From Veillonellales bacterium (GTDB lineage Bacteria > Bacillota > Negativicutes > JAAYSF01), in NCBI GenBank assembly GCA_039680175.1, contig JBDKTO010000038.1:1-49555 (forward strand): a DNA stretch of 49,555 nucleotides. The letters are read 5' to 3'. This document shows, piece after piece, positions 2,934 to 33,176 of this stretch. Position 1 is the first letter of the stretch. The number at the start of each line of letters is the position of its first letter. Position numbers and translations under genes: made by a program. The notes under the pieces are model-generated. The model did not search any database and was not told the origin of the DNA. It worked only from the letters and a program-made list of their open reading frames with translations.

Positions 2934-4649
2934 TTATATCTGAAACTTGCTGACAGTTTCCCGCAGTTCCATCGCCAGATGAGCCAAAGCCTGGCTGGAA
3001 GAAGCAATTTCTTCCATGGAAGCCGATTGCTCTTCGGTAGCTGCCGATACCGTCTGGGTTTCTCCTGATGCCTTTTTACTCAACTCATCAATCCGTTCTA
3101 CCGAACCGACAATCTGCTGGCTGCCAGTTGCCATTTGTTCAATTGCCGCCGATATCTCCTTAATCTGACCGGATACGTGAGTGACCAGATCCGCGATTTC
3201 CTGAAAGGCTTTCCCGGCAGAATTAACCACTTCCGCTCCCAGCTTGACTTCCCGAGTACCATCGTTCATGGCGGCCACAGCTTGATCGGTATCGCCCTGA
3301 ATTTCACCAATCAGATCGGCAATTTGCTTAGCCGATTCCTGGGACTGCTCGGCGAGCTTGCGCACCTCTTCTGCCACTACGGCAAAGCCACGTCCGTGTT
3401 CACCGGCACGGGCTGCCTCAATAGCGGCATTCAAGGCTAGGAGGTTGGTCTGACCGGCAATCCCGGAAATCGTACCTACAATCTGGCCGATTTCCTTAGA
3501 CCGTTCCCCTAACTTATCTACTAACTGAGAGGAAGCAGTAACGGTATGGTCAATTTGAGCCATTTGATTTACTGCTTTATCCACCGACTTATTGCCTTCA
3601 TTGGCCTTGTCAGCGGCCTGAGCCGATTGACCGGCTACTTCATTGGCATTAGCGGCAATTTGCTGAATACTGGCCGACATCTGCTCTACGACGGCGGAAG
3701 TATCATTGGTTGCCGCCAACTGATCCTCCATGCCTTTCGCCACATCGGTAATCGAAGCCGCCACCTGATTGGCAGCCTGAGCCGACTGATCGGCGCTGGC
3801 ATTCAGTTCCTCAGAAGACGCCGCCACCTGTTCCGATGATTCGTTGACCTGCTTCATCATAATACGGAGGCTGCCCCGCATGTCGACCAAAGAATCGGCC
3901 AATTGGCCAACTTCATCTTTTCTCAATAATTTTCTTGGTTTATCACGAAAATCCCCGGCCGCGAGTTCTTTACAAACCAACACCATCGTATGCAGAGGTC
4001 CGGCAATCATCTTGGTAATGAAGAATCCGCTCAGTCCTAAAAACACAAAAGCGATCACAAGCATACCCAGCATAATTTGCGTTGCACTCTCAAATGCCGC
4101 CTTGTTGTCCTTGTTCATTTGCTCAGATAACTTTGCGTAATAATCGGATAGTTCCTCTAAGTTGCCAACAAATTCATTGGCTAGTGGCGCAACAGCCTTA
4201 ACATAGAGTGCATAGGCTTCTACATCTTTGTTTTCCATTGCCAGCTGAATTACTTCTCCTCTGGCTGTACGATATTTTTCCAGAGAAGTCCGTACTTTAT
4301 TTAATAATTCCTTTGCTTTAGGATCTAAGGGTCGTTTTTCAATCTCGGTAAGAGTATTCGTCCCTAGCTTAGCTTGTTCATCGACAACATTTTTTAACTC
4401 CTGATTCTTTTTCTCATCGGTTGTGAGCATTAATTCCAATATTGCTGTATTCGCTGTCTTAGTAGCCACACGAGTTTCATTTAAGAGTTTTACCGGAATC
4501 AATCGTTCTGCGTACATTCGATTCATGTCTGCATTTGACTTCTGGAGATAATAATACCCGTTATACCCGATAACTCCCATTAATACAAAGGCGACAAGAA
4601 TCAAGATACTCAGCTTCATGCTTACTTTCAAATTGTTAAAGAAACTCAT
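2934..4649 (-). CDS. Methyl-accepting chemotaxis protein
   Basis: A 571-residue transmembrane chemoreceptor. Order: N-terminal membrane helix (about 10-35), a periplasmic four-helix-bundle (4HB_MCP) sensor (about 40-185), a second membrane helix (about 190-215), a HAMP domain, and a long coiled-coil signalling domain. The signalling tip is recognisable from [20 protein letters not shown] and [18 protein letters not shown]. It ends without a CheR-binding pentapeptide. The start used is the ATG at 4649, 7 bases after GGAGGA; a frame extension 8 codons upstream has no ribosome-binding site. It stands alone between terminators. The ligand is unknown. It belongs to the same family as the two receptors at the right end of the window. 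Confidence 0.93.
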   Translation of the reverse strand: MSFFNNLKVSMKLSILILVAFVLMGVIGYNGYYYLQKSNADMNRMYAERLIPVKLLNETRVATKTANTAILELMLTTDEKKNQELKNVVDEQAKLGTNTLTEIEKRPLDPKAKELLNKVRTSLEKYRTARGEVIQLAMENKDVEAYALYVKAVAPLANEFVGNLEELSDYYAKLSEQMNKDNKAAFESATQIMLGMLVIAFVFLGLSGFFITKMIAGPLHTMVLVCKELAAGDFRDKPRKLLRKDEVGQLADSLVDMRGSLRIMMKQVNESSEQVAASSEELNASADQSAQAANQVAASITDVAKGMEDQLAATNDTSAVVEQMSASIQQIAANANEVAGQSAQAADKANEGNKSVDKAVNQMAQIDHTVTASSQLVDKLGERSKEIGQIVGTISGIAGQTNLLALNAAIEAARAGEHGRGFAVVAEEVRKLAEQSQESAKQIADLIGEIQGDTDQAVAAMNDGTREVKLGAEVVNSAGKAFQEIADLVTHVSGQIKEISAAIEQMATGSQQIVGSVERIDELSKKASGETQTVSAATEEQSASMEEIASSSQALAHLAMELRETVSKFQI

Positions 4650-15819: not shown

Positions 15820-17994
15820 TTACCGGGAAATGTTTTCCGCCAGAATATCGGCCACATGTTTCACCGCAATATTCGGCGCCTGCTTGTCCAATCCTCCCTG
15901 CAGCTGCATCATGCAGGCAGGGCAGCCTACCGCCACCACTTCGGCGCCGCTGTTTTTAATATTATCAATCTTTTGTTTTAAAATCGGCATGGACAACTCC
16001 GTATACTTAACGCCGAAGGCGCCGGCCATGCCGCAGCATTTATCGCAGTCTTTCATTTCAACAAATTGATAGCCGGGAGCCGCCTCCAAAATTTGACGGG
16101 GTTCTTGATAAATGCCCAAGCCGCGTCTCATATGGCAGGAATCATGATAGGTAATCTTCGTTTTACCGTCAGTCTTGCCCAACCGACCGGCTTTGGCATA
16201 TTCTTCGCTGACAAAACTGATAAACTCGCGTACTTTATGGGCGATATTTTCCGCCCGTTTTTTCCATTCGGGCTCATCGGCAAATAGTTCCGGATATGTT
16301 TGATGCCAAGTCTCCGCACAGGTCGGGCAGGCGGCAACAATTACATCCGCATTGGCGGCTTCAAACGCCTCTATATTCCGCTTGGCAATACCTTTGGCGG
16401 TTTCCCTGTCGCCCATCCCCAGTACCGGCTTGCCGCAGCAGCTTTGCCCTTCCGGGAAAACGACTTCCATCTTAAGATCCTGAAGAACCTTGAACACCGA
16501 TTCACCGGTAGCAGGAAAGACAAAATCAATATTGCAGCCGCTGAAAAAGGCCACTTTCTTCACCGGCTTGGCAATCTTCCTAGTCAGCGAAGAAATTCTG
16601 TCCCGCAGCGGCGTAGCGGCAATAGCCGGCAAACTGCGATCCTTGGCCATTCCGGCAAGGAACAGGGGTAAATGCCGAATTACATTGCCGGACTGAAATG
16701 GTTTTTGGCCGATCGAAGCCACACGCAGCAAAGAATGAAATATTTTCCGGTTGGACAGTACATTTTCAAAAACAACCCGGGTCGCAAAAGGAAGGCCGTG
16801 TTGTTTCACCGCTCTGGCCCGCAGTTCATCGATCAGTCCCGGAATATTAATCTTCCCGGCACATACTTCCGTACACTTCCGGCAGCCGATGCACATTTCA
16901 TTAAATTGTTCAAAATCACCCACACTGTTCAACAGCGCCGTAAGAATCGCCCCGACGCCGCCGGCATAAATATGGCCGTATACATGTCCGCCTACCAGGG
17001 TATAAACGGGACACACATTTAAACAGGCGGCGCAGCGCAGGCAATTGTAAATTTCCTTTAATTTCTCGTCATGAGCGGCTTTAAGCCGGCCGTTATCCAA
17101 CAGGATGATATGCAGTTCTTTATCCTGCTCCACCCATTTCCCGTCTTTTTCCACCATCGTGGGGGTAACGCCGTCCACCATAGTCATATAACTGGTCATC
17201 AGCTGGCAGGTGCCGTTGCGGGGCAGTATCCGCAGCAGACAGGCAGCGTCCTGAATTTTCGGGATTAGTTTTTCGTAACCGATGATCACCACATGAATCC
17301 GGGGCAAAGTCGTCACCAAACGAGCGTTTCCCTCATTCGTAACTAAGCCGATAGCGCCGTTTTCCGCAATACCGAAGTTGGCGCCGGAAATTCCCATATC
17401 CGCCTGTAAAAATTCTTCCCGCAGATTCTGCCGGGCCACCTGTACCATATACGGTATATCGGTGGAAATCTCCCGGTTCAGTTCTTTGGAAAAATAACCG
17501 GCCACTTGTTCTTTATTCAAATGAATTGCCGGCATAACCATATGGGAAGGCCGCTGTCCGGCAACGGCAATGATCCATTCGCCCAAATCCGTTTCCTTAA
17601 CCCGCAATCCGGCATTTTCCAGGCTTTTATTCAAATGGATTTCTTCCGACGCCATGGACTTTGATTTTACAATCCGTTTGACACCTTTTTCTTTGCAGAG
17701 ATTAATCAAATATTCTTTGAGAGCATCGCCGTCTTTGGCCCGGAATACCTTTGCCCCCCGTTTGCCTGCCTCTGCTTCAAACTGATCCGCCAGCTCTTCA
17801 ATATGGGCGACTGCACCAATCTTCATATTTTTAAACTGCTCCCGCAAAGCATCCACATCTTCCACATTCTCGAACGCTTTATCCCGGGAAGCGGGATATT
17901 CTGCCGCAAATCGTCCCAAAGCGCCGCGAAGCACCGGATCGTTTAGTTTTTCGTCAATTTCTTTTTTTAAATTACGCTGTTGCACCGATTCCAT
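15820..17994 (-). CDS. LutB-LutA fusion, lactate-utilisation-type iron-sulfur oxidoreductase
   Basis: A 724-residue protein that joins two normally separate proteins. Residues about 65-300 are a LUD domain (LutB-like, with GISGANFGIAENGAIGLVTN). Two 4Fe-4S binding motifs follow: CLRCAACLNVCP (about 318) and CIGCRKCTEVC (about 368). The C-terminal half is LutA/GlpC-like with two cysteine-rich CCG domains (SCCGKPVLGMG about 519; HDSCHMRRG and CCGMAGAFG about 618-660). With LutC this forms the flavin-independent L-lactate (or other 2-hydroxy acid) oxidation complex. The ATG at 17994 is 9 bases after GAGGAGG; an upstream TTG overlaps the site. It follows LutC by 14 bases. Confidence 0.88.
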   Translation of the reverse strand: MESVQQRNLKKEIDEKLNDPVLRGALGRFAAEYPASRDKAFENVEDVDALREQFKNMKIGAVAHIEELADQFEAEAGKRGAKVFRAKDGDALKEYLINLCKEKGVKRIVKSKSMASEEIHLNKSLENAGLRVKETDLGEWIIAVAGQRPSHMVMPAIHLNKEQVAGYFSKELNREISTDIPYMVQVARQNLREEFLQADMGISGANFGIAENGAIGLVTNEGNARLVTTLPRIHVVIIGYEKLIPKIQDAACLLRILPRNGTCQLMTSYMTMVDGVTPTMVEKDGKWVEQDKELHIILLDNGRLKAAHDEKLKEIYNCLRCAACLNVCPVYTLVGGHVYGHIYAGGVGAILTALLNSVGDFEQFNEMCIGCRKCTEVCAGKINIPGLIDELRARAVKQHGLPFATRVVFENVLSNRKIFHSLLRVASIGQKPFQSGNVIRHLPLFLAGMAKDRSLPAIAATPLRDRISSLTRKIAKPVKKVAFFSGCNIDFVFPATGESVFKVLQDLKMEVVFPEGQSCCGKPVLGMGDRETAKGIAKRNIEAFEAANADVIVAACPTCAETWHQTYPELFADEPEWKKRAENIAHKVREFISFVSEEYAKAGRLGKTDGKTKITYHDSCHMRRGLGIYQEPRQILEAAPGYQFVEMKDCDKCCGMAGAFGVKYTELSMPILKQKIDNIKNSGAEVVAVGCPACMMQLQGGLDKQAPNIAVKHVADILAENISR

Positions 17995-18008
17995 CAGAAC
18001 ACGCCTCC

Positions 18009-18614
18009 TCAAATAACTTCTTCATCGACAGCAATCAAAATAAACCGGCTGGGACCATGCACCCCGATCGTCAATACACGTTCTATATCGGCCGTCCGGC
18101 TTGGCCCGGTAAGAAATCCGGTATAGCCGCGTTTAAAAACTTTAGAAAATACTTCAAATGCTTCCTCCACCCCGGGAACAATATTGCTGCTGTTCATAAA
18201 AACCAGATGAATTGGCGGCAGCATGGAAACCAGCCTGCTCTCAACGGAATATCCGTCGTAGGCGACGCTGCCGGTTTCGGCGACACCAAACTCAACGCTG
18301 GAAATGCCGATATCCGCCGTCTTGGCATGCTCGGCAATGTCCGTATTGGCCGTATACAATTCAATACCCATAGACTGTATCGCCTGAAATATGCCGGAAG
18401 CCTGTTGATACGGCCCGTCCACAGCTACCACTTTTTTCGCCTGAATTGATTTCAGCAGGTCAGTCACAACTTGCTTTGCTTCAGCCGCGTTTTTCACATG
18501 AAAAATTTCCGTTGATGCCTTTTTAGCTCTTGCTTCAAAATCAGCAAAGTATTTCCCGCCGGATTTTCCGTTAGGAAGATTCTGTTCCCAATTCTCACAT
18601 ACTTTCTGCATCAT
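18009..18614 (-). CDS. lutC: LutC/LUD-domain protein
   Basis: A 201-residue LUD-domain protein like LutC (YkgG), a subunit of the lactate utilisation complex. Recognisable segments are VVAVDGPYQQASGIFQAI, DIGISSVEFGVAETGSVAYD, LPPIHLVFM and the C-terminal GPSRTADIERVLTIGVHGP, the usual nucleotide- or substrate-contact loop. A second ATG three bases in is slightly better spaced from AAAGGGG. It lies between the iron alcohol dehydrogenase and the LutBA fusion in a single-direction operon. Confidence 0.88.
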   Translation of the reverse strand: MMQKVCENWEQNLPNGKSGGKYFADFEARAKKASTEIFHVKNAAEAKQVVTDLLKSIQAKKVVAVDGPYQQASGIFQAIQSMGIELYTANTDIAEHAKTADIGISSVEFGVAETGSVAYDGYSVESRLVSMLPPIHLVFMNSSNIVPGVEEAFEVFSKVFKRGYTGFLTGPSRTADIERVLTIGVHGPSRFILIAVDEEVI

Positions 18615-18660
18615 TCCACCCCTTTAGGTTATTGTTATCGCCATAATGTGCTTGACAGTA

Positions 18661-19806
18661 TCAGTACGCCAGCCGCAGAATCTGTTCCACATCACTTTTA
18701 TGCAGCTTTTTCAGCCGTCCCAGCGATCCTTGGGCAACGGCATTCTCCGCCAGCCCGTTCAGCTGCTCCTCCCGGATTCCCAGTTCGTGCAAGCGGGTAT
18801 GTCCCTGCCACTTTTTAATTCGTGCCCGCATCTTCCTGATAGCTGCCGACAGACTGGCAGACTGCCATATGTTTTGGGCAAACCGGTTAAACTGCTTGGG
18901 ATTTTCGTCGTATACATACTGCATCCAGGCAGGAAATAAAATTCCCAGTCCCGCGCCGTGGGCAATGCTAGAGTTCAGGCAGCTGATACTGTGTTCCATT
19001 CCATGACAGGCCCAGTCGCCGCCTCGCATACCGGCGCCGCTGATACCGTTCAAAGCCAGCGTCGCCGCCCAGGCCAAATTGGCCCGGCTGTCCACATCCT
19101 TCGGATTTTCCTGCAGTTTATCCACCATCGCAATGATCGTCTTCATTAAGGCTTCATGGATTGAAATTGAAGTTTCTTCTTCTTTTCCCACAAAATAAAA
19201 TTCCATAATGTGAGCCAACGCGTCCAGCGCCCCGTTCACAGTTTGTTCCCAGGGCAGACTAGTCTGAACGCTTGGATCAATAATCGACACTTTCGGATAC
19301 AAAAAGGAACTGCCGATTCCCCATTTTTTCTTGTCTCTTTCGTTGGTGATGACTGCATTCCCATTCATCTCCGATGCGGTAGCCGACAGGGTAAGAACGG
19401 TAAAAACCGGCAATGCCTTAGAAATCCGGATCTCCCCTTCAAAGGCCTGCCAGATATCATCCAAAAAAACTCCGGCTGCCACTGCTTTGGCGGTATCAAT
19501 AACACTGCCGCCGCCTACCGCCAGAACCGCCTCCACTTGATGTTCAAGCGCCAGGTTAATTGCTTCCCGAACCTTGCTCAAACTTGGGTTTGGCTGGACA
19601 CCGAAACATTCCGCCCATTGAATTTTCTCAGCGTTCAATGACGCCGTAACCGCATCATAAACGCCGTTTTTCTGAATGGAGCCTGCGCCTGCCAGCAGCA
19701 ATACCCTAGTATAGCCGCTGTCGGCAATCCACTTTCCCACTTGCCCGAGGGTATGTTCGCCAAATACCAGCCGGGTAGGATTAAAAAAATTATAAGAAAT
19801 CATCAT
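18661..19806 (-). CDS. Iron-containing alcohol dehydrogenase
   Basis: A 381-residue group III (iron-dependent) alcohol dehydrogenase of the butanol dehydrogenase/YqhD-like branch. Visible are the nucleotide loop GGGSVIDTAKAVA, TLSATASEMNGNAVITN, and the metal-site histidine segments ALDALAHIMEF and CHGMEHSISCLNSSIAHGAG. It interconverts an alcohol and an aldehyde with NAD(P)H. The start codon overlaps the upstream dehydrogenase stop as TAATG, so translation is coupled. It is the fourth gene of the operon. In this context the substrate may be an aldehyde linked to 2-hydroxy acid metabolism, but that is inference. Confidence 0.9.
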   Translation of the reverse strand: MMISYNFFNPTRLVFGEHTLGQVGKWIADSGYTRVLLLAGAGSIQKNGVYDAVTASLNAEKIQWAECFGVQPNPSLSKVREAINLALEHQVEAVLAVGGGSVIDTAKAVAAGVFLDDIWQAFEGEIRISKALPVFTVLTLSATASEMNGNAVITNERDKKKWGIGSSFLYPKVSIIDPSVQTSLPWEQTVNGALDALAHIMEFYFVGKEEETSISIHEALMKTIIAMVDKLQENPKDVDSRANLAWAATLALNGISGAGMRGGDWACHGMEHSISCLNSSIAHGAGLGILFPAWMQYVYDENPKQFNRFAQNIWQSASLSAAIRKMRARIKKWQGHTRLHELGIREEQLNGLAENAVAQGSLGRLKKLHKSDVEQILRLAY

Positions 19807-20762
19807 TACAGTACCAGTCCTACCGACCTCAGTACATTGGAGATACTTTTTGCACTGTTCTTCAACTGAAAAATCTCATCCTCAGCCAAGGGGACTTCTA
19901 TTCTTCTGGCGACTCCATCTCCGGTAATAAGGCAGGGAAGACTCAGGGCAACATCATACAGGCCGTATTCCCCCTCAATAGTAGTAGAAACAGGCAGAAT
20001 ACTGTGCTCATTATAGAGCACCGCCTTGGCAAGGCGGCAGGCGGCCATAGCAATACCGGCGCTGGTAAATCCTTTAAAATTCAGGACATCATAAGCAACG
20101 TTGATAACTGCAGAACCGATTTTTTCACGGTCCAGCGGTTCCTCCGGTTGAAAATACTCATCCAGTCTGTCGCTGGGAACACCGGCAATGTTGAGCAAGC
20201 TCCATGCCGGAAAAGCTGAATTTCCATGTTCGCCCAGCATATAACCCTGAACATCCTTCGGATCTACATGATATTTATTGGCAATCATTCTTTTAAAGCG
20301 GGCTGTTTCCAGCGTAGTACCGGTGCCAAATATTTTATTTTTCGGATAATCAAAAAAGTTTCCCGCATAATAGGCCATCACATCCAACGGATTGGTAATC
20401 ATAATAATCACCGCGTCCCTGGTATACTGCGTGATGGAAGTCATTACATCCTTCATGACTTTGACATTGCGGTCGGCAAGAATCAAGCGGTCCATTGTCT
20501 CGCCCGGTATGATGCTGGGGCCTGCAGCAATAATAATAACGTTGGCCGCTTTGCATTCCGCAAAATCTCCGGCGTGAATATTTACGTTGGTACTGTAAGG
20601 GAAAGGCGTACCATGACTGGCGTCCAAAGCTTCACCCCGCGCTTTTTCGTCAATGATATCAATCACCGCGATTTCATCTGCCAGATTAAAGGATAAGGCA
20701 CAATTCAATACGGCTGAGCCTACATGTCCCGCGCCGACGATAACAAGCTTGTTTTTGGTCAT
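19806..20762 (-). CDS. Lactate/malate-type 2-hydroxyacid dehydrogenase with altered active site
   Basis: A 318-residue NAD-dependent dehydrogenase of the L-lactate/malate family. The Rossmann motif is VIVGAGHVGSAV and the catalytic histidine lies in GEHGNS (177-182). Three active-site features depart from L-lactate dehydrogenase: the substrate-specificity position (Gln in NQKPGET) falls in PSIIPGET; two residues appear inserted before the mobile-loop arginine (GETMDRL); and the Asp partner of the catalytic histidine is Glu (LETARFK instead of LDTARFR). The carboxylate-binding Arg155 is kept. It probably acts on a 2-keto/2-hydroxy acid other than pyruvate/lactate. The ATG follows GGAGGAGG. It sits between CooT and the alcohol dehydrogenase. 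Confidence 0.85.
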   Translation of the reverse strand: MTKNKLVIVGAGHVGSAVLNCALSFNLADEIAVIDIIDEKARGEALDASHGTPFPYSTNVNIHAGDFAECKAANVIIIAAGPSIIPGETMDRLILADRNVKVMKDVMTSITQYTRDAVIIMITNPLDVMAYYAGNFFDYPKNKIFGTGTTLETARFKRMIANKYHVDPKDVQGYMLGEHGNSAFPAWSLLNIAGVPSDRLDEYFQPEEPLDREKIGSAVINVAYDVLNFKGFTSAGIAMAACRLAKAVLYNEHSILPVSTTIEGEYGLYDVALSLPCLITGDGVARRIEVPLAEDEIFQLKNSAKSISNVLRSVGLVL

Positions 20763-20787: not shown

Positions 20788-20822
20788 TTTATAACAATCC
20801 CATCCCTGGGAAGCGTTATAAA
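20788..20822. other. Hairpin between the CooT and dehydrogenase genes
   Basis: TTTATAAC (20788-20795) and GTTATAAA (20815-20822) with an inner CCCA/TGGG pair. It overlaps the CooT stop codon. It may be an RNA processing or stability element inside the operon; there is no T-run. Confidence 0.35.
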
Positions 20823-21016
20823 CTTGCTCCAATCCGTTCTAATATGATGGCATGATCTACCAAACGCAGTTCTTTAATCCTGGCAGCCAGGATCTTCCTC
20901 TGGCCGAATATATTTTCAAGATAAATCTCTGTTTCATGCGGGAAAACCTTATCCACACTCTCCAGCAGTAATTCTTCCGTACCATCATGCAGCACATACG
21001 CATTTGCTTCACACAT
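20816..21016 (-). CDS. CooT-family nickel-binding protein
   Basis: A 66-residue CooT-like protein (MCEANAYVLHDGTEELLLESVDKV..., then FGQRKILAARIKELRLVDHAIIL). In characterised CooT the cysteine right after Met binds nickel for carbon monoxide dehydrogenase maturation. The ATG at 21016 gives exactly the Met-Cys start and lies 6 bases after AGGAGGG; an in-frame ATG two codons upstream would overlap the DUF3842 stop and place the cysteine at position 4. No CO dehydrogenase gene is in the window, so its partner here is unknown. Second gene of the operon. Confidence 0.8.
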   Translation of the reverse strand: MCEANAYVLHDGTEELLLESVDKVFPHETEIYLENIFGQRKILAARIKELRLVDHAIILERIGASL

Positions 21017-21018
21017 GT

Positions 21019-21432
21019 TCATCCCTCCTGATAGCTCCTTATTTGCAACAATAATTGATTGACACAGTGAGGAAGCGGCTCCGGCCGTAATCCGATAACG
21101 TCAACATTTTCACGATAGATAGGAAGCAGCAGCTTTCTTGCCTTGCAGGCCGCAATCGCCTCCGCCATTTTGGGCGTTAGCTCTCCGCCCATCGAATGGG
21201 CCAGAACAAGGCTCAGAGAACCAATAATAAAATCTACTTTATCAACATTATACAGAATGGCATTCTCGCCCGTAGCTCCTTCATCCGCTCCTGCTTTCAG
21301 CATAGCGGCAGTTGCCAGCTCATTCGTTCCCAGGGCCAGCACATTCACTTCTTCCTGAACCCCCTTTTTGAGCTTTTCAATGATCACTCTTCCCATACCG
21401 CCACCTTGTCCGTCAATCACTGCAACACGCAT
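21019..21432 (-). CDS. DUF3842 family protein
   Basis: A 137-residue protein matching the DUF3842 family. It begins MRVAVIDGQGGGMGRVIIEK, a glycine-rich loop at the end of a first beta strand that suggests a Rossmann-like nucleotide- or cofactor-binding fold, and contains NELATAAMLKAGADEGATGENA. Function is not known. It is the first gene of the operon that continues with CooT (3-base gap), with a good ribosome-binding site (CAGGAGG) directly after a terminator-like hairpin in the leader. Confidence 0.8.
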   Translation of the reverse strand: MRVAVIDGQGGGMGRVIIEKLKKGVQEEVNVLALGTNELATAAMLKAGADEGATGENAILYNVDKVDFIIGSLSLVLAHSMGGELTPKMAEAIAACKARKLLLPIYRENVDVIGLRPEPLPHCVNQLLLQIRSYQEG

Positions 21433-21604
21433 AGCAACCTCCTGATAAAAATAAAAAAATCCATAAAAGATAGAACTTTTCTAAGTTCTGTATCCTTCAT
21501 GGATCTTTAGTCATCATTCATATAGCCCAGGTCATCAAACCTCTTCATGAGATTCTCGCCATAAGTAAAATTTATCGCCGTATAAAAATTATTATTATGA
21601 TTAC
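21433..21604 (-). promoter_or_regulatory. Leader RNA with attenuator hairpin, candidate riboswitch
   Basis: About 170 untranslated bases precede DUF3842. The 3' part folds into a long terminator: 21459-21478 pairs with 21483-21504 (two unpaired bases), followed on the minus strand by seven Ts and then the ribosome-binding site. The upstream half contains GGCGATAA...TTATGGCG, CTC-atgaa-GAG and two TGATGAC blocks. I do not recognise it as a known riboswitch class. Confidence 0.55.
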
Positions 21605-21610
21605 TATTTT

Positions 21611-21639
21611 AGTATATGGACGAACCATGAATTAGTCAA
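21611..21639 (-). promoter_or_regulatory. Promoter of the DUF3842-CooT-lut operon
   Basis: Minus-strand TTGACT (21639-21634), exactly 17 bases, TATACT (21616-21611). Expected transcription start near 21604. Confidence 0.75.
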
Positions 21640-32831: not shown

Positions 32832-33123
32832 TAAAAAATAAAACCTCCGCCCCCTATCTAAAGGGGCAAGAGGTTACTCTCGCGATACCACCCTTGTTAT
32901 ACCTAGCAATACATAAAAGCATATTAACTAGATACATCTCATCAAGCCTAGCAACTTTAGCAATATAACGGTTGCACTCACAAGGAGTTGATACCGGCGC
33001 AGCCTACTAAAAGGTTCAGCTTTGCAGTTCAGGAATGACACTCGCATCGTTCTGTTATCGGTTCACACCGCCCACCGACTCTCTGAAACATACTACATGC
33101 AACTAGCTCCTTCATTACTTTTC
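32832..33123 (-). promoter_or_regulatory. T-box riboswitch leader of ilvE
   Basis: Read on the minus strand, stem I has AGAGAGTCGGTGGGCGGTG and an AGTA/GAA loop; the T-box AGGGTGGTATCGCG is at 32894-32881; the terminator is a stem between 32842 and 32875 followed by TTTTATTTTTT. The codon after GAA in the specifier loop is CTG (33027-33025), leucine, though it lacks the usual following purine. This is the classical tRNA-sensing attenuator. Confidence 0.9.
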
Positions 33124-33176
33124 CGGTTACAATATTAAATTTTATTCAGAAAAATATGAATCTATAAAGTGTTTTT

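Follow-up and report, generated by a model that had tools for sequence, protein, structure and literature searches.

A two-hairpin transcription attenuator associated with nickel and cobalt genes in Bacillota

The dual-hairpin sites of CsrA/RsmA and the TwoAYGGAY motif each present two hairpins that carry a common short purine-rich loop. Where nickel and cobalt are concerned, NikR acts on promoter DNA and controls nickel-uptake genes similar to those considered here, and metal-sensing riboswitches exist in the form of the NiCo (czcD) class, which has been linked to efflux. In another kind of system, that of the leaders targeted by ANTAR proteins (the EutV, NasR and AmiR leaders), a pair of small hairpins carries conserved residues in the loops, and the second hairpin of the pair overlaps a terminator (PMC3369931). 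Termination is the default at these targets and read-through follows when both loops are bound; the model used to search for them has 3-bp stems and hexaloops with A at position 1 and G at position 4, and the linker between the hairpins is 5-12 nt in the case of E. faecalis eut (PMC3369931).

Here we describe a leader RNA located within a 49,555-nucleotide contig of a Veillonellales bacterium (the whole of this stretch is referred to as the window), together with related leaders in other Bacillota. We hold with high confidence that the element they share is a genuine conserved class of attenuator tied to nickel/cobalt genes. The fuller proposal, that it is a default-off nickel/cobalt attenuator relieved by a trans-acting protein, we put at a probability of roughly 0.6.

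The leader of the DUF3842-CooT operon

An earlier note on this DNA had described a promoter, a leader, a terminator and a ribosome-binding site in succession, and all of these parts are present, reading of the sequence placing them, like DUF3842-CooT, on the minus strand. The sigma-70-type promoter, TTGACT-17-TATACT (21611..21639), matches the consensus at 10 of 12 positions, its -35 element TTGACT (21639-21634) being separated by a 17-nt spacer from the -10 element TATACT (21616-21611). The 1.3-kb region contains three promoter-like matches against 4.0 expected from shuffles, and because such matches are no commoner than in shuffled sequence the promoter match alone is weak evidence. With its start placed from the -10 element, the transcribed leader would be ~172 nt long (21433..21604). 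When the 170-nt leader was compared with 200 dinucleotide shuffles, it folded better than every one of them (z = -4.1), mostly because of an intrinsic terminator (21453..21508) whose hairpin, at about 21508-21460 with a folding energy of -24.8 kcal/mol, is followed by a run of seven U residues (21459-21453). This hairpin is missing from the output of an automated terminator scan, but RNA folding does show it. Upstream, the minimum-energy fold contains a hairpin that we refer to as P1, GAAUCUC-AUGAA-GAGGUUU (21537..21555). A second hairpin, P2, AUCC-AUGAA-GGAU (21492..21504), lies within the 5' strand of the terminator and appears in folds that precede synthesis of the terminator 3' strand; we take it to be an antiterminator. 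What had been read as an aptamer-like folded part is indeed folded, but amounts only to the single small hairpin P1 together with P2 nested in the terminator. The ribosome-binding site AGGAGG (21437..21442) then precedes the DUF3842 start codon, an ATG at 21432.

The DUF3842 gene (21019..21432, minus strand; PF12953) is an open reading frame with homologues and encodes a protein of 137 aa for which a Rossmann-like structure is predicted (pLDDT 94). It is followed on the same strand by a gene for a CooT-family nickel-binding protein of 67 aa (20816..21016), which begins with an ATG at 21016, ends at 20816 and matches PF10133 over 20837-21016 with 81.7 bits. Serial open reading frames on the minus strand (15820..20762) probably make up the rest of the operon, and from their sequences alone appear to encode LDH/malate-dehydrogenase-like, iron alcohol dehydrogenase-like, LutC-like and LutB-like proteins. 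We also note that the window contains a T-box leader (Rfam RF00230, 98.3 bits) at 32859-33124 on the minus strand, which is unrelated to the attenuator.

The expectation that the leader would fall into no known class was borne out by Rfam, which has no match over it at the gathering threshold; at E values up to 10 the window leader drew only spurious eukaryotic or plastid models that score far below their thresholds. When 20 further loci carrying the element were searched, the matches obtained (a T-box at L186 and others below threshold) missed the element, and across the searches of the window and these 20 loci the NiCo, cobalamin, TwoAYGGAY and T-box models gave no match over it. Sequence similarity revealed no second DNA copy of the window leader in its own genome.

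Recurrence, anatomy and gene context of the element

Recurrence was computed with a pattern (CCATGAAGG, a gap, ATGG and a run of T) that describes P2 and the terminator alone, P1 not being used for selection. Terminators whose 5' strand begins with CCATGAAGG, as in the window, are present at several more distant DUF3842 loci. The pattern matched 59 of the 398 genomes sampled from the phylum (Bacillota), as compared with a single match in a reversed control, and by inspection (~95 loci read overall) about 49 of the 59 pattern-positive genomes contain real leaders. Pattern searches also found the element in many relatives and in Negativicutes generally, part of the Negativicutes matches being intragenic; intragenic matches to the exact pattern, such as those in G761, G568, G527 and G605 and the Selenomonas-type matches, were left out. 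The genome from which the window derives has three copies, one in the window leader and two on another contig (C74). A looser pattern, CCANGAAGG, applied to 55 genomes thought to be negative or lying outside the sample, produced few true matches, chiefly variants in G381 and G390, and because such variants exist the absence of the exact pattern sets only a lower bound on the number of carriers.

The earlier note had named a lack of conserved structure among orthologous leaders as grounds for refuting its idea, and this was nearly the case: the element is absent from the leaders of the closest DUF3842-CooT orthologues (Pelosinus, ~65% identity, and others, L002-L017). It does, however, precede the DUF3842 genes of other Negativicutes and of a Thermincola assembly, and it is found ahead of other nickel/cobalt operons. 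In a group of Bacillota MAGs (L049-L052, L055) a conserved DUF3842 leader has a CATGAAGG hairpin adjoining the ribosome-binding site and is without a terminator; this may be a form of the element that acts on translation. DUF3842 occurs at ~45-55% identity in Desulfobacterota-type, Spirochaetes and Planctomycetes assemblies (L046, L054, L070, L075, L081, L089, L091, L101, L103), and the element was not detected at these DUF3842 loci.

We computed the anatomy of the element over 84 leaders that were lightly de-duplicated and whose phylogenetic independence is only partly controlled. P1 is typically a hairpin of 5-7 bp with a loop of ANGAA or NGAA. Hairpins with at least 5 pairs and a loop of 4-5 nt ending in GAA are found in 56 of the 84 leaders, as against 2.7 ± 1.8 in dinucleotide shuffles (maximum 9), whereas all other loop endings combined are near chance (103 against 92.7 in shuffles); loops ending in GGA are present in 9 leaders. 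Under relaxed rules P1 can be recognized in 64 of the 84 leaders, as 42 pentaloops (mostly ANGAA) and 22 tetraloops (mostly NGAA) in which the closing pair is mostly C-G and all pair types occur in the stems; even so, 20 leaders have no clear P1. Some leaders have two upstream hairpins. The linker from P1 to P2 ranges from 1 to 104 nt, with clusters at 4-8 and 45-65.

P2, in turn, is a 4-bp hairpin, CC-AUGAA-GG, with a loop of 5 nt, and shares its left arm and loop with the 5' strand of the terminator. The AUGAA loop is fixed by the search pattern, while the bases outside CC...GG are free to vary. At these outer positions, the -1/+1 pair is present in 78 of the 84 leaders (68.7 expected) and the -2/+2 pair in 64 (37.3 expected; G-C, A-U and U-A all common), and neither count was reached in any of 2000 shuffles; pairing at the third position and in slid registers is at chance. 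Since the outer two pairs covary and the third position does not exceed chance, a P2 of 4 bp is under selection alongside the terminator. The terminator forms in all 84 minimum-energy folds, and outside the hairpin loops the computation reveals no core that is conserved. Tandem attenuators, two in series before one operon, occur at four loci (L300, L204, L043, at 3719-3766 and 3831-3865, and L336), and in some of these tandem copies the P2 loop is ACGAA or ACGGA instead of AUGAA.

The genes behind the element mostly share a nickel/cobalt theme. The computed counts of downstream families are CbiM 15, ECF S-component 15, DUF3842 10, SBP_bac_5 (NikA-type) 9 and FmdE 8, so that CbiM/NikM is among the commonest targets; FmdE comes with a zinc ribbon. 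Further downstream genes encode NikB-type permeases, LarC (nickel insertion), TonB receptors with ExbB/ExbD/TonB, and CooT, and reading of sequences adds putative CooC-, NiCoT- and CobN-like proteins. The NikA at L179 scores 725 bits, where the cut-off is 393, and one of the C74 elements in the window's own genome (L195) precedes a nickel permease that scores above its cut-off. A metal ion had been one guess at the ligand, and these genes, found in many genomes, bear out the metal; the other guess, lactate or a 2-keto acid, finds no support, the dehydrogenase at L194 in G033 being the sole sign of lactate metabolism outside the window operon. We note two further arrangements. Pairs of genes for an ECF S-component and a SAM-methyltransferase stand behind the element at L314, L322, L325, L327, L330 and L192, which suggests that nickel or cobalt is transported as an organic complex. 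At L188, L196, L176 and L204 the element controls genes for long lipoprotein-like proteins (558-630 aa), beside likely nickel transport genes; two of them have beta-propeller matches and two have no Pfam family.

Inferred switching and candidates for a proposed trans-acting factor

In window transcripts lengthened stepwise, P2 persists until the 3' strand of the terminator emerges, and P1 is missing from some of the minimum-energy folds of the truncated transcripts. Once complete, the terminator is favoured by 15 kcal/mol (-39.4 against -24.4 with P1 and P2 enforced). From these energies we infer that the default state is off and that something must hold P2 for the operon to be on. The nascent RNA would by default form the terminator, and transcription would stop; P2 (CC-AUGAA-GG, 4 pairs) would form first during transcription and compete with the terminator; a factor acting in trans, most likely an RNA-binding protein that is dimeric or has two binding sites and that responds to nickel/cobalt status, would recognize the loop common to P1 and P2 and hold P2; and RNA polymerase would then continue into DUF3842-CooT and what follows. 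Uptake genes predominate among those controlled, which makes it probable that the factor acts under metal scarcity. The direction of the response is nevertheless uncertain, because some of the controlled genes (LarC, CooT, LDH) are nickel users rather than uptake genes.

The earlier note had proposed an orphan riboswitch, of which the conserved, structured transcription attenuator stands, but direct binding of a ligand by the RNA is less likely given linkers of 1-104 nt. A true riboswitch would require the P1 and P2 loops to dock, to bind Ni2+/Co2+ or a small molecule containing nickel or cobalt, and in doing so to switch between P2 and the terminator. The layout and the gene theme would suit a metal riboswitch, no protein partner is proven to be universal, and one genome (G381) has variant elements and no DUF3842. 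On the other hand, so wide a range of linkers, a P1 that may have a tetraloop or a pentaloop and may occur once or twice, and the lack of a conserved core beyond the loops sit badly with a compact metal-binding aptamer; moreover, metal should turn uptake genes off, whereas a stabilized P1/P2 would turn them on. We therefore consider a riboswitch possible but unlikely. The matching small loops, repeated two to three times and set apart by so variable a linker, suggest that a protein target is likelier than an aptamer.

Terminators before genes are common, and this one could be an ordinary constitutive or readthrough terminator that exerts no specific regulation on the operon; such a terminator would not predict the enrichment of P1, the covariation of P2 or the common gene theme, and we regard it as highly improbable. 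Least probable of all is translation-coupled attenuation by a leader peptide, for although a 13-codon open reading frame (ATGAAGAGG...GATGACTAA) runs in the window from the P1 loop to a point just before the terminator it would control, it is without a good ribosome-binding site and takes its start codon from the AUGAA of that loop, which in the family is often AAGAA, ACGAA, CGAA or AGAA, so that the ATG is not conserved.

If the attenuator is relieved by a protein, DUF3842 is a candidate for it. DUF3842 is encoded in 44 of 45 element-bearing genomes, whereas of the other genomes 16 of 35 encode it (p = 5e-8). This co-occurrence clearly surpasses that of the commonest target, CbiM (36 of 45 against 20 of 35, p = 0.05). 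Within Negativicutes it is found in 12 of 12 element-bearing genomes, against 30 of 88 genomes. Two genomes are exceptions in lacking DUF3842: G452, which is 84% complete, and G381, which is 99% complete and whose elements are variants with CCACGAAGG and CTATGAAGG. The predicted structure is a small Rossmann-like domain (pLDDT 94), which by sequence has no match among solved structures; fold searches return many Rossmann-like matches, none of them clear (best Foldseek E value 1.5e-3; best structural Z 9.0 over 91 residues). Both the variant elements of G381, in a genome without DUF3842, and the resemblance of the model to Rossmann-type nucleotide-binding domains count against DUF3842 as the factor. 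That DUF3842 binds RNA in response to metal, serves as the antiterminator for a large nickel/cobalt regulon and controls its own operon through P1/P2 is accordingly a doubtful proposition that we advance only tentatively, and DUF3842 may instead simply belong to the regulon as a member that is almost always present.

Two other candidates for a universal factor were rejected. CooT is a nickel-binding dimer (PMC6006190), and PF10133 is absent from seven element-bearing genomes: G040, G106, G108, G109 and G110 have no match to it, and G112 and G113 are not among the 32 matches. Element-bearing genomes of family f15 are thus without CooT. ANTAR proteins are ruled out by loop, linker and distribution: they show no association with the element (33 of 45 element-bearing genomes against 23 of 35 others, p = 0.47), and 12 of the 45 are free of them, several of these being 98-99% complete and one (G709) a single contig.

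Relation to known systems

The element is an RNA found in about one-eighth of the sampled Bacillota genomes. Rfam 15 has no entry for it, and we found no paper on it or on DUF3842 in the literature searched, the coverage of which excludes subscription journals and preprints. Its targets would make up a nickel/cobalt regulon that extends over Negativicutes, Clostridia and related groups, and it would offer clues to the function of the DUF3842, FmdE-type and ECF-plus-methyltransferase genes that have it in common. It bears on the way in which these anaerobes gauge the nickel that their nickel enzymes need, and on what reads the pairs of ANGAA hairpins. Were DUF3842 the antiterminator, a family without known function or link to RNA would gain a role as a regulator.

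With the NikR regulon the element has in common the control of similar nickel-uptake genes, but NikR has promoter DNA as its target, whereas the signal here lies in the transcribed leader. The NiCo (czcD) riboswitch resembles it in its nickel/cobalt theme and in the control of transcription within a leader; it differs in its link to efflux, the genes behind the element being mostly for uptake and cofactors, and in that the element has no Rfam match. Like the CsrA/RsmA sites and the TwoAYGGAY motif, the element has two hairpins with a matching short purine-rich loop. Unlike them, it has a loop of ANGAA, not ANGGA or AYGGAY (P1 ends in GGA in few leaders), and it sits on a terminator; the CsrA-type ANGGA loop is not what we find, P2 being AUGAA by virtue of the search and P1 mostly ending in GAA. 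With the targets of ANTAR proteins the element shares the layout of two hairpins, one of which overlaps an intrinsic terminator. It differs from those targets in its loops, which are ANGAA (with G at position 3) or NGAA on stems of 4-7 bp, in a linker of 1-104 nt, and in its genes, which concern nickel/cobalt where those of the ANTAR systems concern nitrogen. The working principle, antitermination by a dual hairpin, is known; what is new, as far as Rfam and the literature searched go, is the code in the loops, the regulon and how widely the element occurs.
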